From a virus: DNA of 64,000 bases. Below are positions 24,472 to 55,278 of this stretch, in pieces. The notes under the pieces are model-generated. The model was not told where the DNA came from. It saw nothing but the letters and a program-made list of their open reading frames with translations, and made no database searches. The DNA is taken from IMG/VR virus record IMGVR_UViG_3300028874_000010, positions 48,369-112,368 of that record; one strand, given 5' to 3'. Each line of letters opens with the position of its first letter. The first letter of the stretch is position 1. Both the position numbers and the translations under genes were made by a program.

Positions 24472-25107
24472 TTATCCTTTTTTCTTTGTATAAACAAGTA
24501 AAACAAATTTCTTTAGGTCTGAATTATCGCTCCAGATTTCTTCTTCTGGAACATTCTCACCGTCATACAAAACCGGTTTGCCATCTTTATCTAGTATCAG
24601 ATGACCATGATCAAGAATATAGACTGCTTCGTTTGCCAAATGAGAACGAGCAATTTTCTTCCAAAGCTTGTATCCACCTTCATATTGCAAAGTATCCGAG
24701 ATGATTGTATAACCATCCTGAACCAAAGATGAATACAGAAAGGTTCCAAGGCCTTCGAATTTATTTTGTCTTGCTACTTCAACGAGATCAACTTGTAAAA
24801 TCTTATCCATCAATGGCTTAACATCAGCCCCAATCTTCAAGGTCAACTTAAATAATAGTTGACCGAAAATCATGATTCCATCAGTCCCATCATGGCGCTT
24901 TTGTCTTGTCCCAATAATTGCTGTTTCCAGATCGTTGGTCAACTGAACTTCAACATCGCCTCGCTTAGCAACAAGTTTATATCCTCGTTCTTTCAAGGCA
25001 TCATTGGAAGAAAAGAAAGGTTCCATTGGACCTTCTTCCTCAGTATCAGCAAGTTCAGCACGACTTCGGTGTGGCATTTCATTAAGATATAATTCTTCTA
25101 GTTTCAT
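24472..25107 (-). CDS. Putative internal head protein, GNAT-like fold, 211 aa
   Basis: Begins MKLEELYLNEMPHRS: amphipathic lead followed by an L-N-E site, like the T4 capsid-targeting peptide. The body contains LGTFLYSSLVQDGYTIISD and YEGGYKLWKKIARS, shared with three other genes here (near 29.5, 30.5 and 32.5 kb); the pattern resembles degenerate acetyltransferases. A GATAAATA promoter lies 30 nt upstream. Late expression and packaging are inferred. Confidence 0.65.
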   Translation of the reverse strand: MKLEELYLNEMPHRSRAELADTEEEGPMEPFFSSNDALKERGYKLVAKRGDVEVQLTNDLETAIIGTRQKRHDGTDGIMIFGQLLFKLTLKIGADVKPLMDKILQVDLVEVARQNKFEGLGTFLYSSLVQDGYTIISDTLQYEGGYKLWKKIARSHLANEAVYILDHGHLILDKDGKPVLYDGENVPEEEIWSDNSDLKKFVLLVYTKKKG

Positions 25108-25136
25108 GGCAAATTCTCCTAAGATTCTTCTGAGGC

Positions 25137-25144
25137 TATTTATC
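25137..25144 (-). promoter_or_regulatory. Late-type promoter (GATAAATA)
   Basis: 30 nt upstream of the MKLEELYLNE gene. Confidence 0.55.
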
Positions 25145-25187
25145 TCTCTCTCATAGTACTCCAGGAGTGAAGGCTAGTACATTATTA

Positions 25188-25673
25188 TTACTTTATACTT
25201 CTATGATATGCAGCCGATAAAAAATCTGGATCTTTTGCAGTCTTTGTACATAGGAATTGCGGGTCTGGGATAATTCCAACTCGCCCAAGATCTAATCTAT
25301 CAGCATCCCAACATGTTCTAATTGTTAGGCTTGATTGTGTTAACCCATCACTATGATAAGACATTGCGTAACATAGTTCATCAAACCCAGCATCATCAAT
25401 TCTAAAATATCCACCATGGCGTCTAAGCCATATTGCATTTTCTTTAGCTAATAAGCCATGTTCAAAATCTTCACCTTCATGAGTTCGTTTATGATCATGA
25501 AGAAAAGAAAATAGCCAAACTACATCTTCGCGGGCACCTTCAGATCTAGCAATTAAGAGGCCATTCTTTAACACTCTTGACCAATGCCCCGCACCATGAA
25601 TACCTTTCCAATCGAGTTCAAAATTATCTCTAAGGTAATTGAATATTGCTCGTTTGTTGATTTGTGTTTCCAT
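25188..25673 (-). CDS. HD-domain phosphohydrolase, 161 aa
   Basis: H-x-x-x-HW in IHGAGHWSRVLKN, HD in FSFLHDHKRTHEG, a later SYHSDG and WDADRLDLGR supply the H...HD...D pattern. It is one of five HD-type proteins in the window. Substrate unknown. Confidence 0.75.
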   Translation of the reverse strand: METQINKRAIFNYLRDNFELDWKGIHGAGHWSRVLKNGLLIARSEGAREDVVWLFSFLHDHKRTHEGEDFEHGLLAKENAIWLRRHGGYFRIDDAGFDELCYAMSYHSDGLTQSSLTIRTCWDADRLDLGRVGIIPDPQFLCTKTAKDPDFLSAAYHRSIK

Positions 25674-25677
25674 TGAC

Positions 25678-26121
25678 CTATTTTACTTCCTTTGCGTCAG
25701 AACCAGCCTGGAATTTGTACAACAAAGTCGTGGTGCGATGGCCATAAAACCCGTTATCGATAATTTCAGTGATTGCATCGTCGAACAATACTTCAAACGC
25801 ATCAAATGCATCAACGTAAAATTCTGGGATTTGTGCCAATACTTCAGCAATCGTAGGCTTGAAAAATCCATGATACGCACACGTATGAAATGTCGGGATG
25901 CACCCAATCAATTTCAAACTGTTCATATCTACTTTTTCAGTGAATTTAGGACCCCAGTGAAATGAATCAGTGAACAGATTCGGAAGCTCAATCTTCCACA
26001 AAAGTCCATCCGTACCCCGAACTAACGGAGTGTATTTCCGGATCCTCTCATTAGCAGCTTCTTCAGATATTTCAAGAAGCTCATTTATTTCTTCTTTAGA
26101 TTTAAGACGGAACCAGGTCAT
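25678..26121 (-). CDS. Hypothetical protein, 147 aa
   Basis: Starts at MTWFRLKSKEEINELLEI with an AAAGGA site. N-terminal coiled segment, then a beta-rich domain with GPKFTEKVDMNSLKLIG and TFHTCAYHGFFKPT. Function unknown. Confidence 0.6.
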   Translation of the reverse strand: MTWFRLKSKEEINELLEISEEAANERIRKYTPLVRGTDGLLWKIELPNLFTDSFHWGPKFTEKVDMNSLKLIGCIPTFHTCAYHGFFKPTIAEVLAQIPEFYVDAFDAFEVLFDDAITEIIDNGFYGHRTTTLLYKFQAGSDAKEVK

Positions 26122-26220
26122 TATCTTTCCTTTTACGTTCATCCGCAAGTTTATCAAAAAACCCTTTATTCGTAGCGTCAGACCAGGTATCAAGACGTTG
26201 CTCTACAGTCAGAGAACCTC
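26098..26220 (-). other. Possible small gene without a canonical start
   Basis: A frame reading ...EQRLDTWSDATNKGFFDK... ends PS-stop inside the next gene. A GGAGG ribosome site precedes it but the nearest codons are CTG and ACT, with no ATG, GTG or TTG. It may be a decayed gene or use a CTG start. Confidence 0.25.
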
Positions 26221-26244
26221 CAGTATTAATCCGCCAGCCTCATA

Positions 26245-26288
26245 ATCAATTAGGTAATTAAAGAATATTATATTCCAATTACCTAATC
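26245..26288. repeat. Long inverted repeat after VWA gene
   Basis: ATTAGGTAATT / AATTACCTAAT arms around an AT-rich centre. No U-tract follows on either strand. Possibly a processing site or weak terminator. Confidence 0.4.
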
Positions 26289-26337
26289 ATGTACAATCAA
26301 TTATGCAGCTTTTTTGATGGTGTGACCTTTAGAATCA

Positions 26338-27633
26338 TCAAACCATGTAGATTAATGTAGCTTTCTTACCACGCTTTGCCTTTTCGATTTCTTGGATAGC
26401 TTCAGAAATAGAATCAACTTCTTTTACAAATACGCCATCTTTCTTTCGAAGCAAACGAATTTTACCAGGAATAGTAATAGGACTGAGTACTTGTGCAATT
26501 GCTGGGCTATGTGCTTGAACAACTGGGGCTACTGCAGCCGCTTGAGCAGCAACTACAGCTTTTGGTTGATATGAAGGACCTTCAGTAAAGGCCTTACCAA
26601 CATGTGGCCAATACATCACACAGGAACCCGTCACGAGCTTCCGATTGACCGAGGTTGATTGGATATAAATCTCCCAATTGCCATGGGCGCCTGGAACGAC
26701 TCGCGCATTCCCAACAGTAGGAAGACCAATCATCTGGCGAGCAGCAGGGCCATAATAAACGGTTCCATCTTTTGAATCACGAATGATAATCAGTTTGTTT
26801 TCTTGGACCTTACTTTCCGTTTTATTCAACAGATAGAAAGCCGAACCTTTAAGCATAGGCTTGTTCAAACGCTTTTCAACGAATGGACGAATTTCTGCGC
26901 CATTTTCATTGTGAAGAACCGGCCACATTGTGATTTCAGCCGAAATATCTTTTAGCTGAGCTTTTGCTTCGGCCACAGTAACATTAGCCGCGCTTGCATA
27001 GAAGGTCGAAGTGCTTTTTACGCCGCGCGACCGTTCTGTGTAATAATCATTGAACGCTGCTGTTGTGGCTTGTGTAGAGACTGTTACACCATGAGCGGTT
27101 TGGTCCCATTCTTGAATATTACCAGACGGGATTCCGAAACGTGTTAGGTTTCGTGTTTCGCCACGAGGAACTCGAAATACGAAAGTCCAACGATCGGTAT
27201 TTTGAAGTTCACGAATTTTGTTGCTGAGAGAAACACCAGTCCATTTCTTAGACGAATTTTCGCCGCCATCTGTTGTTACAATGATTAAGAAAGAAACATC
27301 TGGATCATTCGCATCCGGAACCGATTGAAGCAAATCGATTAGTTCACCAACAGAGTCGAATAGAGGAGTTGAACCGCCAGTTGTTGCATATTCATTTACA
27401 GCAATTGGCTTGATGATATGGATATTCGAATTAACGATTTGGCGCTTGACACCAGTCGATCCACTAGGAAGACGAAGACCGCATTGAATAACACTGACGA
27501 TAGTGTCGAGATTATTCATTCTTGCTGCTTGTTGAATTGCTGAGATATTTGTGTTGAAGTCTTTAGCCGCGTAACGACCGATACCACTCATTGAACCAGA
27601 ATGGTCATTGGAAAAGCCGATATAATTTTTCAT
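26338..27633 (-). CDS. VWA-domain protein, 431 aa
   Basis: Starts MKNYIGFSNDHSGSMSG: the metal-binding D-x-S-x-S of a von Willebrand A domain is in the first 15 residues, with TGGSTPLFDSVGELID and IIVTTDGGENSS completing it. The last 80 residues are Ala/Val-rich, then a basic helical region. A TATAAATA promoter is 83 nt upstream, so it is a late protein. Role unknown. Confidence 0.8.
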   Translation of the reverse strand: MKNYIGFSNDHSGSMSGIGRYAAKDFNTNISAIQQAARMNNLDTIVSVIQCGLRLPSGSTGVKRQIVNSNIHIIKPIAVNEYATTGGSTPLFDSVGELIDLLQSVPDANDPDVSFLIIVTTDGGENSSKKWTGVSLSNKIRELQNTDRWTFVFRVPRGETRNLTRFGIPSGNIQEWDQTAHGVTVSTQATTAAFNDYYTERSRGVKSTSTFYASAANVTVAEAKAQLKDISAEITMWPVLHNENGAEIRPFVEKRLNKPMLKGSAFYLLNKTESKVQENKLIIIRDSKDGTVYYGPAARQMIGLPTVGNARVVPGAHGNWEIYIQSTSVNRKLVTGSCVMYWPHVGKAFTEGPSYQPKAVVAAQAAAVAPVVQAHSPAIAQVLSPITIPGKIRLLRKKDGVFVKEVDSISEAIQEIEKAKRGKKATLIYMV

Positions 27634-27715
27634 AAAATTGATGCTCCAAAATATTATTTTTTTAAAGGTACTACAAATTATTTTCAAAGTCGTCGCTTCG
27701 TAATCGCGACATACT

Positions 27716-27723
27716 TATTTATA
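27716..27723 (-). promoter_or_regulatory. Late promoter (TATAAATA)
   Basis: Exact core upstream of the VWA gene; a GTCGC / GCGAC hairpin follows in the leader. Confidence 0.65.
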
Positions 27724-27787
27724 GTACAAAAAAGTCACCGCGATTGCAGTGCCTATCATAATGCAAATGACAAATTTTTAAACTGGA

Positions 27788-27985
27788 TTATTTCCGACCT
27801 AACGCTTGATTAATCATTTGTTGGCTACGTGATATTTCTGGCTGCCGAAAATAATCCAACATTGCGGTCATGATTTCCTGAGGACGAACCATATAATGGA
27901 ACGCACGAATCTCATCGCCTTTCTCGTCGACCAATGAAAGGAATTCTTTATTCCGTCCATTGTGATGCACATAGACCTTGAGCAT
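27788..27985 (-). CDS. Hypothetical protein, 65 aa, paralogue of the 106-aa protein near 31.8 kb
   Basis: KVYVHHNGRNKEFLSLVDEK, GDE and FHY match KFYVHHQGRSKQFMTILDDK, GDE, FHY in the 106-aa protein, and both end LDYFR. This copy lacks the first 50 residues of the other. An upstream frame overlaps it by 118 bp in another register, so the locus may be a frameshifted relic. Confidence 0.55.
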   Translation of the reverse strand: MLKVYVHHNGRNKEFLSLVDEKGDEIRAFHYMVRPQEIMTAMLDYFRQPEISRSQQMINQALGRK

Positions 27986-28143
27986 CTAGCCGCCTGTGAC
28001 ATCACTGACATCGCGTGAAATACCTGTGAATCTGTATCTACATCAGTGTCCCACTCGCCGAATGGCGTGACTTCATTGTTGGGGATCTTGATAGGGCTAG
28101 TGCCTAGAAATAACTGTGCTTGATCGAACTTGAGCTTTGGCAT
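27868..28143 (-). CDS. Uncertain protein, 91 aa, possibly frameshifted
   Basis: Begins MPKLKFDQAQLFLGTS with an acidic middle. Its last 39 codons run across the KVYVHH gene in a different frame, which looks unnatural. The N-terminal half may be real and the tail a product of a frameshift. Confidence 0.35.
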   Translation of the reverse strand: MPKLKFDQAQLFLGTSPIKIPNNEVTPFGEWDTDVDTDSQVFHAMSVMSQAARCSRSMCITMDGIKNSFHWSTRKAMRFVRSIIWFVLRKS

Positions 28144-28218
28144 ATTGAGTCTCAAAAATTACGATGGATGCGTTTGACCGCAATATCAATCTATCACGCC
28201 CATCCATCATGGTACACC

Positions 28219-29424
28219 TTAATAAGCTAAAAGTTTGAAAGCATTATCCCGATTCATTTTAAGAACCTTGCCATAGGTTAATCCAAGTGCACTGCACGAT
28301 TGAACATAGTTATTAGGACTTTGGCCATCCATTCCTAAAAGATCAAACGTATTAATGATTGTGTTTAATGCTGCCAAACCAGTCGGCGATTCGTAAAATA
28401 CTTTACTGGCATAATACATCCGAGCACGATTAGGCATAATGCCTGTTTCGTTAAGTTGCTTAATCAGGAAATCTAGATCCTGATCACCAGTATCGCTAAT
28501 TTTTACTTTATCCCAGGTAACCTTGCCATCAGGATTTCTGTGAGCCATCATGTTATCGAATGCAGAACTATGCATTAAAGCTTTAGCCCATTTGACAGGT
28601 TCATCCTCGAGAGTGAGGCCAGTCCGACGAGCACGGATGATTGATATCTCCCGGAATGCTTGCTGGCGTAGTATAGCGGCGAGAGGGCTTCCCGAGTTGC
28701 TGCCATCATCAGAACCATCACCGAACGATGTCTCGATATCGTAGAACGTATTACACGGATCTAGGACGCCGTTATGCAACGCAGTGGACATACGAGTTTG
28801 ACCATCGTGCCGATCTCTGGTAAGATGGTAATCATAGATCTTGCTTTTCATGTAATGATTGACGAGGCCAGTATCCACGAGACTCGGAACATTAACCAAT
28901 GGATAAAGATCGCCGCCCATATAGGCATGCATTTTGAAAGGCTTGATGGTTTTAGAAAAGCGATTAAAGATGACATTGCGATTGTCGAGGTGCGCGGTGT
29001 ACCTGGACTTTGCTGTCATTTTAGTATTGGCTGGATCAATAAGATCCGAATCAACGAATTCGACGCGTGTTTGAATGTCGTTAACATTGATGCCATGCCA
29101 CATAGAAAATAGTGGTTGGTCAATAACAACTTTATCGAATTTGAATTGGCGAATCAGCATGTTGATATGCTCAATGACTTTAAAGCCACGATAGATGTAA
29201 AGCTTTACGCCGAGTTTGTTTTTGAGCATGGCATCGAATGAGTTGATGCTGCTATAGAAGGCGTTGAGGTTGTCTTGAGAACAAGCGCGATAGATTTCGA
29301 GTTCGCGTTGTCCAGCAAAATAGAATGGAGAGTAATAGACGAATGCACATTCGTCATTGAGGCTGGAGGTTAATCTTGAATCTTCACGGAACGAATGCGT
29401 CATCCATACAAGAGTGCGCGACAT
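28219..29424 (-). CDS. Divergent photolyase/cryptochrome-like protein
   Basis: 401 residues. The N-terminus TLVWMTHSFREDSRLTSSL matches the W-x-R-x-D-LR-x-x-DN region of DNA photolyases, followed by a Rossmann-like part. The C-terminal half has LAAILRQQAFREISI and ETGIMPNRARMYYASKVF, the latter matching the FAD-site TGYMHNRxRMxxASF. Gaps and substitutions are many, so it may repair UV damage or have lost activity. It is monocistronic with a TATAAT-bearing inverted repeat upstream. Confidence 0.65.
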   Translation of the reverse strand: MSRTLVWMTHSFREDSRLTSSLNDECAFVYYSPFYFAGQRELEIYRACSQDNLNAFYSSINSFDAMLKNKLGVKLYIYRGFKVIEHINMLIRQFKFDKVVIDQPLFSMWHGINVNDIQTRVEFVDSDLIDPANTKMTAKSRYTAHLDNRNVIFNRFSKTIKPFKMHAYMGGDLYPLVNVPSLVDTGLVNHYMKSKIYDYHLTRDRHDGQTRMSTALHNGVLDPCNTFYDIETSFGDGSDDGSNSGSPLAAILRQQAFREISIIRARRTGLTLEDEPVKWAKALMHSSAFDNMMAHRNPDGKVTWDKVKISDTGDQDLDFLIKQLNETGIMPNRARMYYASKVFYESPTGLAALNTIINTFDLLGMDGQSPNNYVQSCSALGLTYGKVLKMNRDNAFKLLAY

Positions 29425-29440
29425 GATATGCCTCCAAGAA

Positions 29441-29466
29441 TTGGTGTAATTGATTATACACCAATT
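29441..29466 (-). promoter_or_regulatory. Inverted repeat with TATAAT upstream of photolyase-like gene
   Basis: TTGGTGTAAT / ATTATACACCAA palindrome. The minus strand reads GGTGTATAATC, so a -10 element sits within a possible operator. Confidence 0.45.
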
Positions 29467-29477
29467 CTATAAAGACA

Positions 29478-30068
29478 TTACTTAAAGATTACAACGATCA
29501 TACGTTGGAACCAATTTGCGTTGCCCCAAGTAGATGGAATTTGTTTCTTAAACTCGGCATTTGATTTAACATCAATAAATGTTTTGTCATTGGTATTAAT
29601 GACGCGAACAGTTAATTTTTTGTCAAGTGCTTCTTTCACGACAAATGACCAAAAATTCTTACCTTTTTCAGTTTGTTGACTGTCGCTAGCCAAACATTTA
29701 TATTTTGGCCAAAGAATATCCCAAAATACTTTGTTAGCTACTTTTGTTGAAGCATGGTTATCTTTATTACGCCATACTAAAACCTGTCTAATAGCTTTCG
29801 ACGGGGATAGTGATTGGTCAAACTCGACTACATGGTACTTCACAAAATATACAACCCGAGATTTAACTGGTTCTGAAATATCATATACAAAATAATATCC
29901 AGTCCCGCCATCCTCTAATTGGTACAAACTTGCATCATCATCTAGTTTTTCTATTTCTTTTGCAGAGTTAATGTTCTGCAAACAATAATTAGATGCTTTT
30001 TGTACCTCATTTCTATCCAGTGAAGGAATGCTTTGAGGTTCTTCTTCAAGTACTTCAGCAAGTTTCAT
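29478..30068 (-). CDS. Putative internal head protein, 196 aa
   Basis: Begins MKLAEVLEEEPQS with an L-E-E site at residues 7-9. The C-terminal half aligns in pattern with the GNAT-like family (VFWDILWPKY, ASDSQQTEKGKNFWSFV), with the same closing hydrophobic strand. Packaging role inferred from the N-terminus. Confidence 0.6.
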   Translation of the reverse strand: MKLAEVLEEEPQSIPSLDRNEVQKASNYCLQNINSAKEIEKLDDDASLYQLEDGGTGYYFVYDISEPVKSRVVYFVKYHVVEFDQSLSPSKAIRQVLVWRNKDNHASTKVANKVFWDILWPKYKCLASDSQQTEKGKNFWSFVVKEALDKKLTVRVINTNDKTFIDVKSNAEFKKQIPSTWGNANWFQRMIVVIFK

Positions 30069-30112
30069 GATATGCTCCTTTTTACTATAGTATCACAGGA
30101 TGTGATAGAGCA

Positions 30113-30376
30113 TTAATTCTTTGGCTTCTGTCCCTTGACAACGATACAGCAATCAAGTTCCTTTGGATCCCATTCCTTGACCTTACCGTTTTGACCAATC
30201 AATCCAATGAGTGAGCCATCATCAGAGACCTTGATAAACTCTCCGGCAAAATTGCCGTCTTCATCAGTCAAAACGACACCACGTTCGATTGGTTCTTTTT
30301 CCCAACCATTACCGTATGGGTCTTGAGCGTACACGTCGTAGCTTTGCTTGTTTGGTGCGAATTCTTGAAGTTTCAT
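30113..30376 (-). CDS. Hypothetical late protein, 87 aa, CTS-like start
   Basis: Begins MKLQEFAPNKQSYDVYAQD. The lead matches the shared pattern but no (L/I)xE site follows. Beta-rich domain with VLTDEDGNFAGEFIKV. A CATAAATA promoter is 24 nt upstream. Confidence 0.6.
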   Translation of the reverse strand: MKLQEFAPNKQSYDVYAQDPYGNGWEKEPIERGVVLTDEDGNFAGEFIKVSDDGSLIGLIGQNGKVKEWDPKELDCCIVVKGQKPKN

Positions 30377-30399
30377 GTTAAATCCTTAGATTGTTTCTC

Positions 30400-30407
30400 T
30401 ATTTATG
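30400..30407 (-). promoter_or_regulatory. Late-type promoter (CATAAATA)
   Basis: 24 nt upstream of the MKLQEF gene. Confidence 0.5.
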
Positions 30408-30415
30408 CCGAACAC

Positions 30416-30682
30416 TTATTTCTTTTTCAACATTAACAAAACATACCGAGTTGCTTCTTTTGCATTTTTCGCTGGCGCCTTCCAAATCTTTTCATCGGCT
30501 AGATTTTTGCCATTGTATTTCAATGGCTTATCTCCATCCATCACTACATTGCCGTTATCGATCACATACACATCAAAGTGAGATGCTTCAGATAATTTAG
30601 CAAGCTTTTCCCACAATTTCTTTCCGCCAATGTATTGCGTGTGATAGGAAATTAAAACATATCCAAATTCAATCAAACTCAA
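30416..30682 (-). CDS. Truncated GNAT-like paralogue, 88 aa
   Basis: Begins at a TTG within the sequence that reads LYLSLIEFGYVLIS, homologous to residues about 125-213 of the 213-aa protein near 32.6 kb. A strong AAAGGAG site and TATAAT element are fused directly in front, so the N-terminal two thirds are deleted while expression signals remain. It lacks the head-targeting start. Confidence 0.65.
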   Translation of the reverse strand: MSLIEFGYVLISYHTQYIGGKKLWEKLAKLSEASHFDVYVIDNGNVVMDGDKPLKYNGKNLADEKIWKAPAKNAKEATRYVLLMLKKK

Positions 30683-30726
30683 ATATAGATTACTCCTTTA
30701 ATTCTTATTTTTATTATACCACAATT

Positions 30727-31640: not shown

Positions 31641-31665
31641 CATAGGGTGTTTATATAGAGTAAGA

Positions 31666-32308: not shown

Positions 32309-32950
32309 TTACTTCTTTTTCATAGCTAGTAATACATATCTGGTTGAATCTTTAGCTGACTTTGCTGGAGTCTTCCAAATCTTTTCATCTGTAATATTCT
32401 TGCCATCATATTTCAATGGACTTCCGGAATCATCAAGGATTACATTTCCGTTGTCAATCACGTATACATCAAATTTATCACCAGAGAACCTCGCTAACTT
32501 TTCCCACAACTTCCTACCACCAATATATTGAGTGTGATCAGAAATCAAAACAAAACCATATTCGACTAAACTTAAATACAAATTGTAGCCGAAGCCATTG
32601 GCTTTTTCTTTACTGTATACTTCAACTACATCTACTTGAAGTACATTCTTAGAAGTTAAAATTTCTTCATCATAAGACAAATCCAGCTTACTTTTAAATT
32701 CTAATTTTCCAATTAGGTTAAGGCCGATTTTTTTATCTTCCTTACGAACAGATAATATGCCAATTACAGCAAAGCTTTTATCTTTTTTCAGGATAGACCA
32801 TACTTCTTCATCATTGACTTTGACCTTCCCGATACTATCAAAATCTCGTTTGATAGTATCTTCAGAATAAAATCGCATAGTACCAGACATTACAACAGGC
32901 ATTTCTTTGTCGATAAATTCTGGCATTTCAAATAGCTCTTCTATTTTCAT
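32309..32950 (-). CDS. Putative internal head protein, GNAT-like fold, 213 aa
   Basis: Starts MKIEELFEMPEFID with an L-F-E site; the upstream in-frame Met lies in the preceding gene. The C-terminus YNLYLSLVEYGFVLISDHTQ and RKLWEKLARFSG defines a family with genes near 24.8, 29.7 and 30.5 kb. It overlaps no neighbour and is followed by tRNA-Ser(GCU), probably on one transcript. Confidence 0.65.
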   Translation of the reverse strand: MKIEELFEMPEFIDKEMPVVMSGTMRFYSEDTIKRDFDSIGKVKVNDEEVWSILKKDKSFAVIGILSVRKEDKKIGLNLIGKLEFKSKLDLSYDEEILTSKNVLQVDVVEVYSKEKANGFGYNLYLSLVEYGFVLISDHTQYIGGRKLWEKLARFSGDKFDVYVIDNGNVILDDSGSPLKYDGKNITDEKIWKTPAKSAKDSTRYVLLAMKKK

Positions 32951-32954
32951 AATC

Positions 32955-33395
32955 TTATAGTTTCTTGGTTTCAGACAATAGAAGTTTATCAATATAAATC
33001 ACAACTTCTTGTTCATCACCATAACCTTCTTCTAATTCTTGATCGGCTAATTTATGTAATTCTTCAGGAGTGAATTCATTTACACCTTTAACAAATTCCA
33101 ACCAATCTTCTTTATCCATCCCAGTCACATGGACTAATAATGAATTTTTTTCAAGCCAATCAAGATTGTATTCGACCTTCACAATCTTAGCGTGTCGTTT
33201 CAATAATTTTTTGACATTAAGCTCTAATAAAATATTGCCGAAATCTTCTGTCTGATTTGCTTCTTTATCTGGAGTCGCACACAATGTACCGCGTTTAAAA
33301 GTCAATTCTCCTGTACTAGTTAATGTATGATATTGAGCATCACCCATGCGATGGTACAATTTAGTATACGGCGAAGCAAGTTCATATAATTTCAT
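32955..33395 (-). CDS. Hypothetical protein, 146 aa, CTS-like start
   Basis: Starts MKLYELASPYTKLYHRMG. Contains GDAQYHTLTSTGELTFKRG and a final acidic helix. The HRMG-x-A-x-YH opening is a common phage motif resembling ADP-ribosyltransferase-like folds, but I cannot confirm active residues. It lies between tRNA-Ser(CGA) and the GNAT-like gene. Confidence 0.55.
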   Translation of the reverse strand: MKLYELASPYTKLYHRMGDAQYHTLTSTGELTFKRGTLCATPDKEANQTEDFGNILLELNVKKLLKRHAKIVKVEYNLDWLEKNSLLVHVTGMDKEDWLEFVKGVNEFTPEELHKLADQELEEGYGDEQEVVIYIDKLLLSETKKL

Positions 33396-33529: not shown

Positions 33530-33787
33530 TTAATCTTCAATGAAAATCGTAAGGTCATCACTGCTCCAATCGAAATTCAAAAGCTCGACTTTATACTTCT
33601 TAGCCAATGTCCTTGCATCGGCTTCAAATGCATCCATATCATGTTCAGCAGCTTGGTTAGTGAGATATAGCTTAATTTCATCGTCACTGGTTTCAGCTGT
33701 ATCGGCTGGGATATGATGCTTCTTTGCTAACTCTTCAAGAGCCACAACAAAACTCTTTTTACCTTCAAAAATCTCTGCTATTTTCAT
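33530..33787 (-). CDS. Putative internal head protein, 85 aa
   Basis: Starts MKIAEIFEGKKSF with an I-F-E site at residues 6-8, then an acidic helical/beta body. A GATAAATA promoter is 28 nt upstream. Followed directly by tRNA-Ser(CGA). Confidence 0.6.
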   Translation of the reverse strand: MKIAEIFEGKKSFVVALEELAKKHHIPADTAETSDDEIKLYLTNQAAEHDMDAFEADARTLAKKYKVELLNFDWSSDDLTIFIED

Positions 33788-33814: not shown

Positions 33815-33822
33815 TATTTATC
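33815..33822 (-). promoter_or_regulatory. Late-type promoter (GATAAATA)
   Basis: 28 nt upstream of the MKIAEIFE gene; probably drives the mixed tRNA and protein unit down to 32 kb. Confidence 0.55.
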
Positions 33823-48381: not shown

Positions 48382-49194
48382 TTACTGAGCAATCGACGCA
48401 ACAGCGGGATCGTTGAACGCGCCATCAACATTAACAGAGTTATTAGCAGAAGCATTACCGCTAACATTGTTGGTGTTTGTTTGGAACGGTGTTACACCTG
48501 CACCCATGCCAACGGATAGGGTATTGGTCACATCAACATTCGACACCGAAGTCTTGGTGTCATTGATTTGGCCAACAACATTAACACCGGTCGTTGTACC
48601 ATCATTTGTCGTATCAGCACCAATGGAACCATTGACATTGAATGCATCAGCAGTATTGGCTGTTACAGCACCACCGCCATTTGTTGTAGCGTTTACACCA
48701 ATACTTGTACCTTGGCTACCGGTTCCCTTGCCACCATCAAGACTTGTTCCGATTGAACCATTTAGGGTCAATGTTTGTTCAGTTTGATAACCATTGCCGA
48801 TGTTGGCTCCAGCATTATTATATGAACCCGCTACATCAAGTCCAGCTGCAGCCGAACCATTTGTGCTTGCCGAACCAACGCCATTACCAGTAGAAACGTT
48901 GAACGCATTACCGGAATTAGCTGTTGCGGTTTGACCAGAAAGATTGATCGAAGCACCAACACCGCCAGCACCTGGAGCAACTTGGTTGAATGAAGCTTGG
49001 CCATTCGACATTGTACTTGCAATGCCGGTTGCCGAACTGTATGAACTACCAGCTTGACCAAGATTGGTTTGTGCCGATGTTGAGATTGTATTGTTGATCG
49101 AACCAACGTTTGTCAAATTGACTGTTGGGGCACCAGCAAAAGCTGATGTCGAAAAAATGAGTGCAGCCGATACAGCGAAAAGAGTCTTATTCAT
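48382..49194 (-). CDS. Secreted repeat-rich Asn/Gly/Ser/Thr protein, 270 aa
   Basis: Signal peptide MNKTLFAVSAALIFSTSAFA. The mature protein repeats units such as ATANSGNAFNVSTGNGVGS, VTANTADAFNVNGSIGAD and VSGNASANNSVNVDGAFND, with no Cys and no charged core. The repeat looks like a beta-solenoid or curlin-like fibre. Encoded next to another secreted protein. Export from an infected cell, or incorporation in a fibre, would be novel for a phage. Confidence 0.7.
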   Translation of the reverse strand: MNKTLFAVSAALIFSTSAFAGAPTVNLTNVGSINNTISTSAQTNLGQAGSSYSSATGIASTMSNGQASFNQVAPGAGGVGASINLSGQTATANSGNAFNVSTGNGVGSASTNGSAAAGLDVAGSYNNAGANIGNGYQTEQTLTLNGSIGTSLDGGKGTGSQGTSIGVNATTNGGGAVTANTADAFNVNGSIGADTTNDGTTTGVNVVGQINDTKTSVSNVDVTNTLSVGMGAGVTPFQTNTNNVSGNASANNSVNVDGAFNDPAVASIAQ

Positions 49195-49372
49195 ATGGTC
49201 TTATTAATAGTTTGAAAAGTGTAAACGGAATGTTTACATGAGTTAGAACTTAATCAGTTGGACGTAAAACGTCTCTTGACTTAAGAGATGATATTCTACT
49301 TCATTGATAGGAAATGTACATTGATATTTTGCAAAATCATCAATATTGAGTTAAATATTCTCTAGATAAAAA
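49195..49372. other. Intergenic stretch
   Basis: No gene seen. Contains a TTTACACTTTTC element near 49220 and small hairpins TCTCTT / AAGAGA and GACGT / ACGTC. Confidence 0.4.
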
Positions 49373-49774
49373 TCAGTGAGTACTGATTACACAAACCTGC
49401 TGGACATGCGTAGTAATGATAATTTTATGGTTTGGGAATCTATCTTTAAATTGATGTTCAATTTTACCGATACTAAAGTCGCTTAGATCTGGATCCACTT
49501 TAACCCAGATAACATCGTTTGGAAGAAGTGGCCCAATTACATTTTGATTGTCATATAGTTATAAGATGGTAGCAATTAAAGTAATTTGTCTTGGTTGATC
49601 ACCATCTTCTGTTGTTTTGGTGTAGCGAATATCAAATTTAACTTTACTGGTATCAGTAGGATCTAAATCTTCAATAGCATAACTAGTAACTTGGTTGTTG
49701 CTTTGATCTACCAGAATAGCAAGAAGAGCATCAAGAGTTTCTTGACCTAAAGTGAATTGGTATTTAGTTGTCAT
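49373..49774 (-). pseudogene. Two-part frame split by TAA (71 aa + 61 aa)
   Basis: The first 71 codons give an intact small protein starting MTTKYQFTLGQETLDALLA. Directly after its TAA (49559-49561) the same frame continues for 61 codons with a typical phage pattern PLLPNDVIWVKVDPDLSDFS and FKDRFPNHKIIITTH, but no start codon. Either one gene is broken, or the second part lost its start. Confidence 0.5.
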
Positions 49775-49799
49775 TTTATGAAGTTGTTGTTCTATTACT

Positions 49800-49916
49800 T
49801 GGTGGGTGGTTAGGAAATCGAATCCATTTGCAGTTTATGTAGTATCAGGAAGAACCGACGCCTGTTTGATAGCTTCCCTGCATCACCTATACTATGGCCA
49901 CCTTCGGCAACCACCC
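49800..49916 (-). ncRNA. 117-nt RNA with tRNA-like ends
   Basis: Perfect 7-bp acceptor GGGTGGT / ACCACCC followed by ACCA, and a T-arm-like GGATTCGATTTCC near the 3' end. The body is about 40 nt too long for a tRNA and contains GGTTGCC / GGTGGCC and GGAAG / CTTCC hairpins. It could be an intron-bearing or degenerate tRNA, or a tRNA-like RNA. Confidence 0.5.
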
Positions 49917-49927
49917 AGTGTTTTAAA

Positions 49928-50215
49928 TTACCAACCAGCAATAGCTGTTACATCTTTATAATGTCGTTTTCTAAGGCGTGTTGGTTTTGCTGGACCGACC
50001 ATGATTGGATACACAAAACAATTGAAAAATGTTTTATGGACCTTCCAGCCTACGACCCAAACACCAGGTTTAAGTTGATATGGGAGTTTTTCGTTGTTCC
50101 ATGCATCCTCTACATACTTCTTAACTACCTCTTTGGTCTGTGTATCGGGATCACCAAATGCAAACCTAACACTATTTAGAGCAGACAGTAGGCCGCCCGA
50201 TAATTCAGCAATCAT
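49928..50215 (-). CDS. Hypothetical protein, 95 aa
   Basis: Helical N-terminus and a beta-rich W/V block (VWVVGWKVHKTFFNC). Overlaps the ferritin-like gene by 4 bp. Function unknown. Confidence 0.55.
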   Translation of the reverse strand: MIAELSGGLLSALNSVRFAFGDPDTQTKEVVKKYVEDAWNNEKLPYQLKPGVWVVGWKVHKTFFNCFVYPIMVGPAKPTRLRKRHYKDVTAIAGW

Positions 50216-50736
50216 GCAACTAACCCGAGTGCGGCTCGACCAAGTTCATGATTGCCATAAGTCTTTGACAATGCATCCGATGTTGTCATACTCCGAAATG
50301 CACGTTCATGAAATTGTTCATCTACTAAAATTTTAGTAAACACTTCGCGAATATCCCGAGGAGCTGTTTGATCTTCACTAATAACTTGAATGCGTTCTAG
50401 ACGCATTGCTTCAGCATGAGTAGTGACAGCAGTACCGGTTTCGAAACTATCAATTCCTGGTAGTGTAGAAGCCCAATAGCGGTTCTCTGCATTCTCGGTT
50501 GAAGGTGTTATACCACGAGATGTTAAAAGCCCTAGGACCCATGAAGCATGAGTTTCTTCTTGTTGCGCAATAACAGAAAGAGTTTTAAGGTCATGACCGT
50601 TAACGTTAAACTGAAGTGCTAATTTGCGAATTCTAGAGGCAGCGGTAAGTTCACCCCGGTATTGTTTGACTAGCCATTCCTTCAGCAATGAAGGAGAAGC
50701 TTTAACTTCATTCCACCAAGTTTGAGATGTTTTCAT
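50212..50736 (-). CDS. Ferritin-like diiron protein
   Basis: 174 residues, four-helix pattern with metal ligands YRGELTAASR (Glu), QQEETHASWV (ExxH), a third Glu in AEAMRLERI and DEQFHERAF (ExxH). This is a rubrerythrin/ferritin-like diiron site. It might detoxify peroxide, oxidise a substrate or store metal. Confidence 0.78.
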   Translation of the reverse strand: MKTSQTWWNEVKASPSLLKEWLVKQYRGELTAASRIRKLALQFNVNGHDLKTLSVIAQQEETHASWVLGLLTSRGITPSTENAENRYWASTLPGIDSFETGTAVTTHAEAMRLERIQVISEDQTAPRDIREVFTKILVDEQFHERAFRSMTTSDALSKTYGNHELGRAALGLVA

Positions 50737-50755
50737 ATTCTATATTTGTTATTGT

Positions 50756-51020
50756 TTAAAATGGCACATCGTATTTAAAAATAGATAGGGGTTCACCGAA
50801 TTCATTAAGCAGCTACACTTCTAGGTTGGCTCGATAATATTCATAGAAACGTAGCCGGCCTAAAGAGACTAAATCTTTAATTAACCTATGAATATCGCCA
50901 ACGTCTGCCCCACTTACCAGTTGTACATCTTAGGCATCTTGCTGATCTATTTTATTTCTGGTAAAGTTTTATCGAGAGCTTATCCTGAGAAGGATTTACG
51001 GTTAACCAGCTCTCATCATG
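50756..51020 (-). pseudogene. Degraded gene with frameshift and two stops
   Basis: One frame reads KIDQQDA-stop-DVQLVSGADVGDIHRLI ... GRLRFYEYYRANLEV-stop-LLNEFGEPLSIFKYDVPF-stop (stops at 50930 and 50813). A neighbouring frame upstream reads ESWLTVNPSQDKLSIKLYQ. No start is left. The region otherwise holds no gene. Confidence 0.45.
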
Positions 51021-51044
51021 ATATTAAGTAGGTTATCACACTTT

Positions 51045-51323
51045 TTATTTTAATGCTAAGATTGTTAATGCTTGAATTAGTTTTTCACGAGCGAGTTCGA
51101 TTGATCTATCGGTATCTGTAGTCCATCTAGCATCGTTATAGCTTAGTGCTGCACTAAGCTCCCGATTTGCTTGTTCTAAACAGCCACAGAGTTTCTTAAT
51201 AACAGAATCATGATCTGGTTTTGATTCAGCATTCTTACCTAACAACAAACCAAGTTTAGCTTCGCCGATCCCAGACTCAGCTAATCGCTCAAGCACTTGC
51301 TTATAAATCTGTTCTGCCGTCAT
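51045..51323 (-). CDS. Hypothetical protein, 92 aa
   Basis: Helical, acidic, MTAEQIYKQVLERLAESG. Resembles a small two- or three-helix phage protein. Function unknown. Confidence 0.6.
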   Translation of the reverse strand: MTAEQIYKQVLERLAESGIGEAKLGLLLGKNAESKPDHDSVIKKLCGCLEQANRELSAALSYNDARWTTDTDRSIELAREKLIQALTILALK

Positions 51324-51416
51324 AAATTAGAACTCACAAAATGTAATAAAAATTATTCTTTCGAAGAACCAATTGTAAACTCAATTTTGCCCATTGAATA
51401 CATATCATTTTCGGAA

Positions 51417-51776
51417 TTAGAACTTTGCCGCAAGAGCTTCCATGATGTCAAGTTCTTCGTTTCTCAAATCACGGACTTGTCCTTCGCGAACTGCTTGACA
51501 GAAGGCCATCATATTGACAACAGCCCGAACAGTCGATGCATCAAACTTCTCAACCTTGTGAGCGGTTGACCCATTATTGAACCAACCATCTGCGCCATCT
51601 GGTCCCTTGATTTCTTCATCATCATCATTCGGACCATAGATAATTTCAAGATTGTCATCTGTCAAACCCTTGAGAGCTTGAACGATTTGGATAACCTGGT
51701 CCTTCTTGATCGATTCTGTAATCGTGGGTTTGGCTAGCTTAACACCAGCCAGTTGGGCAATACGCTTGATGTCCAT
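51417..51776 (-). CDS. Hypothetical protein, 119 aa, possible head-protein lead
   Basis: Starts MDIKRIAQLAGVKLAKPTIT with an AGGAAA site; a longer frame would overlap tRNA-Gly. An I-T-E site follows at residues 19-21, like the prohead protease signal, though the lead is longer than in other members. Acidic middle (NDDDEEIKGPDG). Confidence 0.6.
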   Translation of the reverse strand: MDIKRIAQLAGVKLAKPTITESIKKDQVIQIVQALKGLTDDNLEIIYGPNDDDEEIKGPDGADGWFNNGSTAHKVEKFDASTVRAVVNMMAFCQAVREGQVRDLRNEELDIMEALAAKF

Positions 51777-51796
51777 TATATTTCCTATGCATTGGG

Positions 51797-51871
51797 TGGC
51801 GCGGGGATGGGAATTCGAATCCCATACTCCTGGGTGGAAGCCAGACATGTAACCGTCAACACTTTCCCCGC
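51797..51871 (-). tRNA. tRNA-Gly(UCC)
   Basis: 75 nt; loop CTTCCAC; perfect acceptor GCGGGGA / TCCCCGC; CCA encoded. Confidence 0.9.
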
Positions 51872-51902
51872 AATAATTTGATACTGTAAAATATTACATT
51901 TC

Positions 51903-51910
51903 TATTTATA
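51903..51910 (-). promoter_or_regulatory. Late promoter (TATAAATA) for tRNA-Gly
   Basis: Exact core 32 nt upstream of the tRNA and likely also of the 119-aa gene. Confidence 0.65.
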
Positions 51911-51946
51911 TCACTTTACAGTATCATGTATAGCTTTTTGCCAAAC

Positions 51947-52318
51947 TTATCTCGTAGGCCTATCTTTATATTCAGCCTTCAAATCTTTAGTAAGTTTTTT
52001 TGCTTCTTTATCAGTTAATTCGCGAGTTAGAAAAATATCATATCCAACACCAAATTCAATTCCTTTTTTCCAATCATAACCTTTCTGAACTTCTACTTTC
52101 TTAATGATTGGTTGGCCGGCTTTCTTTACCACTGATCCAAGAACCAAATGTTCCGGGAATTCGAATGTTACTTCAAATATTACCGTATCACGATTGACTT
52201 CAATAAGGTTAAAAGCAGAATGCCTAACGTTAGTAATCTCTCTAATCGCAGTCTTGATTAACTCAATTACGTCTATTTAGTCAGAAGCGGCCGCTTCAAA
52301 TAATTCTTTGATTTTCAT
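51947..52318 (-). pseudogene. Putative internal head protein split by TAA after its targeting peptide
   Basis: Starts MKIKELFEAAASD by TAATG overlap with the upstream gene. The next codon is TAA (52277-52279) and the same frame then runs 110 codons (IDVIELIKTAIRE ... KDLKAEYKDRPTR). The lead has the L-F-E site of the other head-type proteins. Either a nonsense mutation, or readthrough / separate translation from an internal TTG near 52147. Confidence 0.7.
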
Positions 52319-52716
52319 TACATTGGTCCCATTGCACATGTAGCCAATGATTGAAGAGTTTTTGCCAAAGTTTCAGTAATGCTAGGATTTTTTGCTAATA
52401 TCGTAGCAGGTTTAGCAACTCGTTTTAATACTCCGCCATCACCTTCATGTTCAAATATAGAACCCATGTAAAGCAAAGCAAGTTTCATATTTGCTGGAGT
52501 ATTTAAAAATTCTTTCAACTCCGATTTGGCTTTACCTCGAATCAAGTCTGCGGAACTTTTTGCTTGTTCAAGATTTTCCTTTCTTACTTCTTCATCTTTT
52601 TTATCTCTGGTATCAGAGGCCAAATAATATTGGAACATCATATCAACAATTTTATTACTAGATGTCATTGTCGCTACACCTTCATTCAACTGTAGCAATT
52701 CTTGAATTAGACTCAT
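52318..52716 (-). CDS. Putative internal head protein, 132 aa
   Basis: Starts MSLIQELLQLNEGVATM: amphipathic lead with an L-N-E site at 10-12. Body helical with KSELKEFLNTP and EHEGDGGVLKRVAKPAT. Two GATAAATA elements precede it. Confidence 0.65.
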   Translation of the reverse strand: MSLIQELLQLNEGVATMTSSNKIVDMMFQYYLASDTRDKKDEEVRKENLEQAKSSADLIRGKAKSELKEFLNTPANMKLALLYMGSIFEHEGDGGVLKRVAKPATILAKNPSITETLAKTLQSLATCAMGPM

Positions 52717-52742
52717 AAATAACCTTTAAGTGGATGGTATCT

Positions 52743-52759
52743 TATTTATCTTATTTATC
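52743..52759 (-). promoter_or_regulatory. Tandem late-type promoters (two GATAAATA)
   Basis: Two copies 9 nt apart, 27 nt upstream of the MSLIQELL gene. Confidence 0.6.
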
Positions 52760-53171
52760 TAACAATGATCCACTTACGATCATTATGACGTGCTTTCATT
52801 TTATCCCAGAAGGTCGAACTCAAGCTTGCCTTTCCATCACTAACTTTAGTATGATCTTTAACTTTGATGGTTAAGTGTTCTGGAAGACTAGCAACAATGC
52901 ATTCTACAAAAGATGTGCCAAGGCCTTTATCTTTAAGACTTTCATCTAGATAAAAATTATCCAGATAGACATATGTTTCGTGTAGCCATAGATCGAATTC
53001 AATCTGGTCATTGGTATGATGACGTGTAAAGATATGGTCTATCTTGCCAGAGATATCGACAGGCTTTTCAAAAGATTTATGACAGAAATCCTTAATGTTC
53101 TTCACTACTTGCTTGCGCAGAGCATTAAGTTGATCTGGAGATAATTCTTGTTTAATTTCTTTGAGAAGCAT
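52755..53171 (-). CDS. Putative internal head protein, 138 aa, GNAT-like
   Basis: Starts MLLKEIKQELSPDQ, a lead of the shared type but with no clean cleavage site. Middle has NFYLDESLKDKGLGTSFVECI, an acetyl-CoA-binding-like G-x-G pattern. TATAAATA lies 26 nt upstream. Confidence 0.6.
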   Translation of the reverse strand: MLLKEIKQELSPDQLNALRKQVVKNIKDFCHKSFEKPVDISGKIDHIFTRHHTNDQIEFDLWLHETYVYLDNFYLDESLKDKGLGTSFVECIVASLPEHLTIKVKDHTKVSDGKASLSSTFWDKMKARHNDRKWIIVR

Positions 53172-53196
53172 TTCGTTACAGTCCTTGTGTTTTTAG

Positions 53197-53204
53197 TATT
53201 TATA
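53197..53204 (-). promoter_or_regulatory. Late promoter (TATAAATA)
   Basis: Exact core 26 nt upstream of the MLLKEIKQ gene. Confidence 0.7.
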
Positions 53205-53270
53205 AGCACGAGAACTGTAACGGTATAAAAAGGGAGGCAGCAAAGGGGTTGCGCCAGTCCCATAAACTTG

Positions 53271-53348
53271 TGGTAGTCTGTATCGGATTCGAACCGATGA
53301 CCTACTGTTTTGAAGACAGATGCTCTAACCAGACTAAGCTAACAGACC
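53271..53348 (-). tRNA. tRNA-Glu(UUC), second copy
   Basis: 78 nt; loop CTTCAAA gives UUC; A73, CCA encoded; G1-U72 pair. Confidence 0.85.
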
Positions 53349-53389
53349 ATAGAAGCATTATACACAAACAAAACAACATTGTACATCTT

Positions 53390-53710
53390 TTAATAATTAA
53401 TCGTTTCACCAAGATGTTCGAGCATACACGCCAAAGTAAAAAACAGAGTGCTCAACTTTGCTGTTGCCTTTCCGTGGCCAATTGCATGAATAGCCAGAGA
53501 ATCCGACATGTTTATAAAAAACTGGCCTTCATTTTCAATTTTATTGCAATTATCATACATATTACCAATAGGTATAAGGTATGATAATTGTTGGGATTTT
53601 GCTTCATCAATAGCGGTTAATAAAGTTTTGAGTTCATACGAAGATCCGTATTTTTTGTGTGCCAAATTATAAAGATCTGAAGCAGTAGTTATTCCAGTAT
53701 TGGATAACAT
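53390..53710 (-). CDS. Hypothetical protein, 106 aa
   Basis: Mostly helical, start MLSNTGITTASDLYNLAHK, with SLAIHAIGHGKATAKLS. Lies 12 nt after the Cys-rich gene. Function unknown. Confidence 0.6.
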   Translation of the reverse strand: MLSNTGITTASDLYNLAHKKYGSSYELKTLLTAIDEAKSQQLSYLIPIGNMYDNCNKIENEGQFFINMSDSLAIHAIGHGKATAKLSTLFFTLACMLEHLGETINY

Positions 53711-53722
53711 GTCAAAACTCCA

Positions 53723-53956
53723 TTAATAAGCCATTGCGTAAGCATGGAATCCGGTATCTTTATATCCAGATGTTCCCCAGCACACTCGACGATTGCAACA
53801 ATCGCAACGATGGCTCCATCCATCCCAGCCTCGGCAATTCGCCTCAGGATTTACCTCATCGCAATTATGTCCTTCAAACTCAATAAATTCGCCAGGACCA
53901 ACACTAAGTGACGAGTGGGTTATTGCTGCTTCTGGTGTTGAAAAATGAGGTGTCAT
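53723..53956 (-). CDS. Cys/Trp-rich small protein, 77 aa
   Basis: Seven cysteines incl. CRGWDGWSHRCDCCNRRVC, likely a zinc or disulphide module. Preceded by two mutually exclusive hairpins in its leader. Function unknown. Confidence 0.6.
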   Translation of the reverse strand: MTPHFSTPEAAITHSSLSVGPGEFIEFEGHNCDEVNPEANCRGWDGWSHRCDCCNRRVCWGTSGYKDTGFHAYAMAY

Positions 53957-53975
53957 TTTACTATCTCGGAATTAG

Positions 53976-54021
53976 GTCCTGCCAAAAGTACTATGTATAT
54001 ATGGCAGGACTATATACATAG
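53976..54021 (-). promoter_or_regulatory. Mutually exclusive leader hairpins
   Basis: Interleaved perfect repeats: GTCCTGCCA (53976-53984) with TGGCAGGAC (54002-54010), and CTATGTATATA (53991-54001) with TATATACATAG (54011-54021). The second pairing partner of each lies inside the other's loop, so only one can form fully. It is 20 nt upstream of the Cys-rich gene start. Confidence 0.55.
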
Positions 54022-54278
54022 GATCCAAAACGACGATCATGGATCACTAGCCGATTTTATTACGTCGATTACAACTTCAAGGTCCCGGCTTTTGGTGCTG
54101 GTTTTAAGTAGCTATATCGGGAGAAAGCCAGCAAAAGTCCGATACACGTATCCAAGTCAATAGATATTTCGATGGATCATCCGGTGATGTAAATCATACC
54201 TAAAGAGATTTCTCTCCTCACCGCAAAACCATTGTATTCCAACATAACGAGTTTGTAAACAACAATTTTCACATACGA
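54022..54278 (-). other. Stretch with gene fragments, no intact gene
   Basis: Short coding-like pieces occur in three minus-strand frames, for example LLKTSTKSRDLEVVIDVIKS with flanking stops. None has a start plus ribosome site. Probably a decayed gene or spacer. Confidence 0.35.
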
Positions 54279-54308
54279 AAAAGCCTCTCAAAAAGAGAGG
54301 CTTTTTAT
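54279..54308. terminator. Bidirectional terminator
   Basis: AAAAAGCCTCTC / GAGAGGCTTTTT with 4-nt loop; terminates the Met-like tRNA transcript. Confidence 0.92.
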
Positions 54309-54313
54309 TGTAA

Positions 54314-54386
54314 TGGATGCGACCGAAGGTAACGATCCTTCTCCCATCATGGATTATGAGCCCAGAGTCTGCCATCAGAAGTCGCA
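54314..54386 (-). tRNA. tRNA-Met(CAU)-like with tiny D-loop
   Basis: 73 nt; acceptor TGCGACT / GGTCGCA; loop CTCATAA gives CAU; TCCA end. The D-stem TCTG / CAGA closes a 4-nt loop and the T-loop is ATCGTTA rather than TTCRANN. Transcribed almost leaderless from the TATAAATA just upstream. Confidence 0.7.
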
Positions 54387-54390
54387 ACTG

Positions 54391-54398
54391 TATTTATA
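54391..54398 (-). promoter_or_regulatory. Late promoter (TATAAATA) for Met-like tRNA
   Basis: Exact core 4 nt before the tRNA 5' end. Confidence 0.65.
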
Positions 54399-54800
54399 GC
54401 AGGAAAAAAGTTTCGTATAGGAATTGGTCTTCACCAATGACATTTTTTATAGGCTGTCTGACCTTAAATTGCAACATACTCCGACCTATACCTCAGATGA
54501 CATTTCAGGAAGTCATCTCCTTGCCTCTTTATTCATGATGTTTAGACCTACCGTTTATCCAGTTTATGGTGACGATAACCCGTACGCATCACAACGCTTC
54601 ATTGAAGGATCCTCAGTTATGAGAATCCTTCTCCACTTCTAAAGAATCCCACGGCTCTATTTTCATCCATTGAACAATTGGGAACTACCATTCAACTTCA
54701 GTGTAGCACTTATAAAGGATCAATATCAAAAATTTAATGAACCTTCACTAATGGTCTACAAGCATTACGTTAGAGGTTTGTACCACAACCAACGTGAGAT
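54399..54800 (-). ncRNA. Candidate non-coding RNA, about 400 nt
   Basis: No start with a ribosome site and no long frame. Several hairpins are visible: GAAGGATCCTCA / TGAGAATCCTTC, GATGAC / GTCATC and ATTGGT / ACCAAT. A good TTTACA-18-TATAAT promoter points into it. It ends at the Met-like tRNA and terminator. Confidence 0.45.
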
Positions 54801-54802
54801 GA

Positions 54803-54832
54803 ATTATATATCAATTCTAGGAAAAGTGTAAA
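54803..54832 (-). promoter_or_regulatory. Sigma70-like promoter (TTTACA-18-TATAAT)
   Basis: Carries the same TTTACACTTTTC block as the 32-kb promoter. Directed into the gene-free stretch. Confidence 0.6.
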
Positions 54833-54833
54833 A

Positions 54834-55247
54834 TTATTTAATCAATGCCCAATTACGAATATATGAACGAGCACCAGTACAATCACATAAGTACTTGGAG
54901 TTTGTAAATTCCACAACAAACATACCTTCCTTAGGAAGATCCGCATCACCTAGAGGGCCTTCTGGTCTCTTATCAGACCCAAATATTTCTTTGCCTTTAT
55001 ATACTTTAAGTTCATAACCAGATTTCTTTAGTTCACTCTCAACTTTTTTAAAAGTTGCTGCACTAATAGGCTTATATTTTGTATCTGGTTCTGGAGTATC
55101 TATTTCTTCCCAATAGCTCGGTTTCTCAATCAAACTAACTCCGGCATCTTTTAATATATTAAGTTGTGCCGATCCAAATGCTTGCGTTCCGGTAATAGGT
55201 TTAGCACTGGTGGTAAGGTGCTCTTTAAAAATATCTTTTACTTTCAT
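54834..55247 (-). CDS. Putative internal head protein, 137 aa
   Basis: Starts MKVKDIFKEHLTTSAKP, shared lead pattern, cleavage site unclear. Body Lys/Glu-rich with FKKVESELKKSGYELKVYKG and CDCTGARSYIRN. Late promoter 24 nt upstream. Confidence 0.6.
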   Translation of the reverse strand: MKVKDIFKEHLTTSAKPITGTQAFGSAQLNILKDAGVSLIEKPSYWEEIDTPEPDTKYKPISAATFKKVESELKKSGYELKVYKGKEIFGSDKRPEGPLGDADLPKEGMFVVEFTNSKYLCDCTGARSYIRNWALIK

Positions 55248-55270
55248 AATAATCCTTTATATGTGCTTTA

Positions 55271-55278
55271 TATTTATA
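55271..55278 (-). promoter_or_regulatory. Late promoter (TATAAATA)
   Basis: Exact core 24 nt upstream of the MKVKDIF gene. Confidence 0.65.

Follow-up and report, generated by a model that had tools for sequence, protein, structure and literature searches.

In phage T4, the internal proteins IPI–IPIII start with the capsid-targeting sequence (CTS) MKTYQEFIAE, which is cut by gp21, and the propeptides of gp24 and of the internal proteins are both termed CTS (PMC5694885). The inner-body ejection proteins of phiKZ and SPN3US are likewise packaged with the DNA in large numbers and processed by a prohead protease, and in P1 an N-terminal signal sends the defense-related Dar proteins to the head. 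Here, we analyzed a 64,000-nucleotide stretch of viral DNA (the window; bases 48369–112368, up to the end of a virus record 112,368 bases long), in which genes for diverse proteins start with a short amphipathic lead (the tag), often together with an (L/I)xE site. We consider it likely that these leads are capsid-targeting propeptides of the T4 type and that the proteins carrying them form a fast-changing set packaged in the head.

The leads MKTFKQYLEE, MKTFKQFLSE, and MKPTFKSFLTE share pattern and site with IPI–IPIII, and in both systems diverse bodies have the tag alone in common and lie behind late promoters. In the jumbo phages, however, the commoner lead is MK(L/I)xE(L/I)xxE. This second class (MKIEELFE, MKIAEIFE, MKVNEILSE/S; the slash precedes the residue that follows the lead) is closest to the starts of T4 Alt (MELITELFDE) and gp24 (MAKINELLRE/S), although Alt is an ADP-ribosyltransferase and gp24 a vertex protein, and their bodies differ from those of the tagged jumbo-phage proteins; a match to an ADP-ribosyltransferase, as in Alt, was weak and concerned only one tagged protein of Atu_ph07. 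The cargo is also larger, with up to ~20 proteins in 360 kb of Atu_ph07 compared to three internal proteins and Alt in T4. The propeptides of phiKZ and SPN3US are mostly much longer (PMC5694885), their protease is of the S80 type, and the short tag was not found in phiKZ, while the Dar proteins are without a shared consensus (PMC9024508). The CTS principle is already known from T4 and, by analogy, from P1; new relative to T4 are the commoner second lead class resembling gp24 and Alt and the many more cargo proteins per genome. No description of a large battery of jumbo-phage proteins sharing a short tag was found in the open-access literature searched. T4 itself encodes a further protein, gp61.1 (T4 record 18966–19130), which starts with the textbook capsid-targeting lead MKTFKEFIKE and is possibly an unrecognized internal protein.

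Coupling of the Lead to an (L/I)xE Site

The window represents part of a T4-superfamily jumbo phage and lacks the head genes. At the DNA level, no phage record matched it (a megablast search of phages with 20 kb of the window as the query found nothing). A closer relative is IMG/VR contig 3300028588_000819 (G001; 184,871 bases). It has ~50 related proteins in largely conserved order; for example, the nucleotidyltransferases are 74% identical and the PrkA proteins 81%. The assignment follows from G001, whose genes include those for a tail tube protein and for a terminase of the T4 gp17 type. The best cultured matches of this terminase are in the jumbo phages XacN1 (of Xanthomonas; 43%), RAS14 (of Stenotrophomonas), CM1, Phosso, PA5oct (of Pseudomonas), and Atu_ph07 (of Agrobacterium). 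G001 has a tagged set of its own, and for most tagged window proteins it contains no relative. A 102-kb fragment, G002, is a further relative.

The tags are real and occur above chance. On the contig (112 kb), 8/217 gene starts fit the motif "M, [KRNQHST], hydrophobic, x, [EDQKN], hydrophobic, then E", compared with 2/610 internal Met (p = 5e-4). For the coupling test, the lead set was defined by the hydrophobic pattern alone, and (L/I)xE was then scored with Glu at residue 7–13. Seven of the 14 contig genes with the lead pattern carried the site, compared with 15 of the 203 genes without the pattern (p = 9e-5); two of these seven, a 43-aa open reading frame (ORF) and 15553–16377, are doubtful. 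Across seven related genomes (the contig itself, G001, G002, XacN1, RAS14, PA5oct, and 360 kb of Atu_ph07), (L/I)xE was present in 65/144 lead genes (45%) and in 242/2919 others (8%; p = 1.5e-29), and the coupling was significant in each genome alone. At internal Met of the same genomes, which served as the control, the site followed the lead pattern in 15/105 cases. The short lead is carried by unrelated bodies of 45 families. With one gene per body family the coupling persisted (41/114 versus 158/2154, p = 7e-17), so paralogy is not its cause. The residue after the site was small (A, S, G, T, or N) in 33/65 genes, against a background of 30%.

The same test gave no coupling in phiKZ, which has a protease of another type (1/8, p = 0.41), and a coupling in T4 (7/19, p = 0.005), where the matches include ipII and ipIII. 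Mahaphage-like genomes have different leads, and the first regular-expression trials therefore picked up little signal in them. The genomes LR756502, LR756504, and LR745206 have their own tags (MKYIKLFE, MKYLKLFED, and MKKFTEYIKES), and many of their tagged genes have TAATATATA so close to the start codon (only a few bases upstream) that the messages would be leaderless.

Tag and body are separate modules. The body family phrog_11975 is found behind MRLFQLLETAE or MKWHQLTE in Atu_ph07 and behind MKSFKQFISEE, MRVLEILCED, or MKTFKQYITE in G001 and G002. The nucleotidyltransferases of the window and G001 (lead MRTFKEFLVE/A) are identical at 6/16 positions over residues 1–16 and at 120/158 over the body. 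And the family comprising the window proteins at 24472 and 32309 and a G002 protein has an untagged relative in the P1-like phage RCS47.

Late Promoters and the Prohead Protease

In six genomes, ATAAATA was found 8–45 nucleotides (nt) upstream of 19/65 tagged genes compared with 162/2385 other genes (odds ratio 5.7, p = 8e-8). Judged by this sequence match, the tagged genes would be expressed late from TATAAATA-type promoters. An earlier interpretation made from the DNA letters (the sequence-only reading) had placed several leads of the window behind late promoters, and this was borne out by six genes with ATAAATA 23–35 nt before the start: 24472–25107 (29 nt), 30113 (23 nt), 33530 (27 nt), 52318 (35 nt), 52755 (25 nt), and 54834 (23 nt).

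The same reading had called for a gp21-type protease in the genome. This enzyme is absent from the 112-kb fragment and present in 5/5 complete cultured relatives (XacN1, RAS14, PA5oct, Atu_ph07, and Phosso), where the S77 family matched with E 1e-20 to 1e-27. In XacN1 and PA5oct, the gene lies near that of the portal protein, and the His and Ser of S77 are invariant in the three sequences aligned. S77 proteases in T4-like jumbo phages were already known (PMC7824862). The distant Mahaphage-like genomes gave a weak S77 match within a long ORF. An S77 protease was not found in G002, and a PF03420 search of the contig and G001 gave no match, which is uninformative since both are fragments. A scan of IMG/VR for S77 proteases returned too many relatives to tie one to this phage.

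Probable Virion Association of Tagged Proteins in Relatives

The PA5oct record carries the mark "ESI-MS/MS" (electrospray ionization tandem mass spectrometry, MS) on 93/445 coding genes (21%). These marks were read as the virion proteome because most marked products are named structural. The tagged proteins of PA5oct (lead plus E) were marked in 7/10 cases (p = 0.001; length-stratified permutation p = 5e-5), and those with the K/R-only pattern in 6/7 (p = 4e-4), while (L/I)xE without the lead was not predictive of the mark (p = 0.22). The tagged genes without a mark include 262106–262300. In Atu_ph07, 13/19 tagged genes lie within coding sequences (CDS) 31–76, a block in which 29 virion proteins were found, mostly unrecognized before (PMC6102473). 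Inside this block, gp053–gp063 form a tandem run of about eleven genes, most of which share one body family and all of which start with M(K/R)WxQL(T/N)E or a similar lead. Since the tags point to virion proteins in two relatives, the tag is probably a signal for entry into the head, followed by its removal by cutting.

Proposed Route and Alternative Explanations

We infer the cleavage, head location, and injection of the tagged proteins from T4, whose tag packages even foreign proteins (PMC3012670). The tagged proteins would be made late, and the short amphipathic N-terminus would bring each of them into the prohead core. There, the gp21-type (S77) protease would cleave after (L/I)xE and remove the tag. 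The mature protein would be kept in the head with the DNA and would probably enter the host along with it. The bodies differ between phages while the type of tag is constant, as would be expected of a fast-changing set for host takeover or anti-defense; the functions of the bodies are putative.

Several observations weigh against this interpretation. The 112-kb contig and G001, both fragments, contain no S77 protease or head gene, and in the window four leads are without the strict site and one tagged gene is broken. The sequence-only reading as a whole is thus supported in part; its capsid-targeting proposal is well supported by the coupling in seven genomes, the late promoters, the S77 proteases of the cultured relatives, and the MS enrichment in PA5oct. 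In that phage, the strict (L/I)xE form was weaker (5/7 marked, p = 0.005), and the pattern was set after the marked N-termini had been seen, so the test is not entirely blind, but its result holds with the K/R-only variant; the mark could also take in tail or co-purified proteins. The virion data of Atu_ph07 were compared at the level of the gene block, and most of the tagged genes there are paralogues. In T4, 4/7 matches (dda, mobB, lysozyme e, and uvsY) look like chance. As the motif is short and has such probable chance matches, predictions for single members can be wrong and need care.

Some of the tagged proteins are core proteins, as indicated by their positions. The gene of the small PA5oct protein MKINDIITEG (32921–33142) has the position of T4 gp67, with the portal gene on one side and the protease gene on the other, and the gene of the small XacN1 protein MKIQNILSED (174593–175045) adjoins the protease. 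The tags might accordingly mark structural prohead-core (scaffold) proteins like T4 gp67, gp68, and gp22, which have a part in building the head and are mostly degraded afterwards, rather than injected effectors. We regard this as unlikely, for most tagged proteins are encoded far from the head cluster, some bodies are enzyme-like (SprT, nucleotidyltransferase, AAA, and phosphoribosyltransferase), and the tagged proteins vary between phages, with several retained in the PA5oct virion data. A shared start that is a by-product of translation initiation or of an MK-rich, AT-rich composition, with no targeting role, is already disfavored and highly improbable. The lead is short, MK starts are common in phage genes, and the strict motif has false matches in T4, which speaks for such a by-product; against it stand the link between two separate features across 45 families, the lack of this coupling in phiKZ, and the enrichment among MS-marked proteins and behind late promoters. 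We give just as little credence to a lead that targets the tail, baseplate, membrane, or replication compartment, with virion association being secondary. The MS marks do not separate head from tail, but (L/I)xE with a small next residue fits a prohead protease, and T4 head proteins start alike.

It is an even call that the hydrophobic lead with (L/I)xE forms a general N-terminal "zip code" common to gp21-encoding giant phages. The whole packaged and injected set would then be readable from sequence, with about ten to twenty or more proteins per genome, including nucleotidyltransferase, SprT protease, acetyltransferase-like, and ADP-ribosyltransferase-like enzymes.

Tagged Genes of the Window

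All eleven leads named in the sequence-only reading were found, ten in intact ORFs and one in a gene broken by an in-frame stop; these genes and the SprT-like gene described below are on the minus strand. The reading had counted at least ten otherwise unrelated proteins, which slightly overstates their independence, as the bodies at 24472 and 32309 are paralogues with 42% identity. It had also given most leads an (L/I)xE site. With Glu at residues 7–13, the strict site was present in 7/11 (MKTFKQYLEE, MKLEELYLNE, MKLAEVLEE, MKIEELFE, MKIAEIFE, MKIKELFE, and MSLIQELLQLNE), and absent from four, of which MKVKDIFKE has FKE, and MLLKEIKQE, MKLQEF, and MKLYEL have none.

The T4 internal protein-type lead MKTFKQYLEE/S belongs to a nucleotidyltransferase-like protein (1–524; 313 aa in all) that runs off the window. 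This lead was present at 524 as claimed, outside the region 24472–55278 to which the battery had been assigned. Adjoining it upstream is a gene for a SprT-like metalloprotease (524–961; lead MLSFKGFMKE/Q; PF10263 E 3e-5, just under the cut-off), whose relative in G001 starts with MKRTFKQFLE/S. The gene at 24472–25107 (lead MKLEELYLNE/M, body family phrog_7522) is the one with the leaderless RCS47 homologue; its ATAAATA element is at 25137–25143, and an IMG/VR search for relatives of the protein found none. Its paralogue at 32309–32950 (lead MKIEELFE/M) has a weak match to the virion structural family phrog_25121 (E 0.0014). At 30416–30682, the C-terminal half of the latter recurs in a truncated, untagged form, with the shared stretch FGYVLISxHTQYIGGxKLWEKLA.

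Among the other members, MKLAEVLEE (29478–30068) has a phrog_1349/phrog_3307 body, and MKIAEIFE/G (33530–33787) has its ATAAATA at ~33815–33821. MKLQEF (30113–30376; ATAAATA at ~30400–30406) and MKLYEL (32955–33395) are weak members without a cleavage site; an ADP-ribosyltransferase reading of 32955–33395 was dropped for lack of family support. The gene of MSLIQELLQLNE/G (52318–52716) has two ATAAATA elements ~25 and ~35 nt upstream. Further on are MLLKEIKQE (52755–53171; ATAAATA at ~53197–53203), whose relative in G001 starts with MLLQEIKDLS and is 59% identical, and MKVKDIFKE/H (54834–55247; ATAAATA at ~55271–55277). The MKIKELFE/AAASD gene (51947–52318) has the perfect tag MKIKELFEAAASD, with a TAA after 13 codons, a few codons beyond the predicted cleavage site. 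Given this in-frame TAA and the ~110 open codons that follow in the same frame, either the gene is broken or the assembly is at fault.

The enzyme-like calls of the sequence-only reading fared unevenly. The nucleotidyltransferase has some tool support, as has the SprT metalloprotease, while the protein at 52755–53171 is GNAT-like on sequence appearance only. The nucleotidyltransferase-like body has a Gly-Ser…Asp-x-Asp core, and its low-confidence structure model (mean predicted local distance difference test score, pLDDT, 51) gave weak fold matches, all to polymerase-beta-type nucleotidyltransferases. The model of the 32309 protein was also of low confidence (mean pLDDT 53), and the fold search gave nothing usable. 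Pfam and PHROGs scans of the window proteins matched no body to the T4 IPI, IPII, or IPIII families. The tagged bodies of G001 include an AAA ATPase and a phosphoribosyltransferase-like protein, and those of Atu_ph07 weakly matched ADP-ribosyltransferases and acetyltransferases. For G001 72641–73303, a kinase reading was dropped because it had no family support.

Elsewhere in the window, 3721–9076 holds a complete SpoVR–DUF444 (YeaH)–PrkA trio, a bacterial stress and sporulation module. These genes are 41–60% identical to those of 630-kb Mahaphage-like genomes, and SpoVR relatives occur in Thermus phages. A Sir2-family protein is encoded at 1825–2586, near the SprT and nucleotidyltransferase genes, and likewise in G001. 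PADLOC gave no defense-family match.

Implications for Giant Phages

Proteins injected with the DNA act before phage gene expression, which makes them prime candidates to block first-line defenses. In T4, IPI blocks a restriction enzyme (PMC3012670), and IPIII is required for infecting one strain of E. coli (PMC9391042). According to a 2026 review of jumbo phages, only one anti-defense protein has been described in them (PMC13282480). If the tag is truly a packaging signal, it would allow the proteins delivered into the host to be predicted from sequence. A tag that predicts packaged proteins would yield ranked candidates, mostly proteins of unknown function, in many giant phages, and would make the head content of these phages directly testable.

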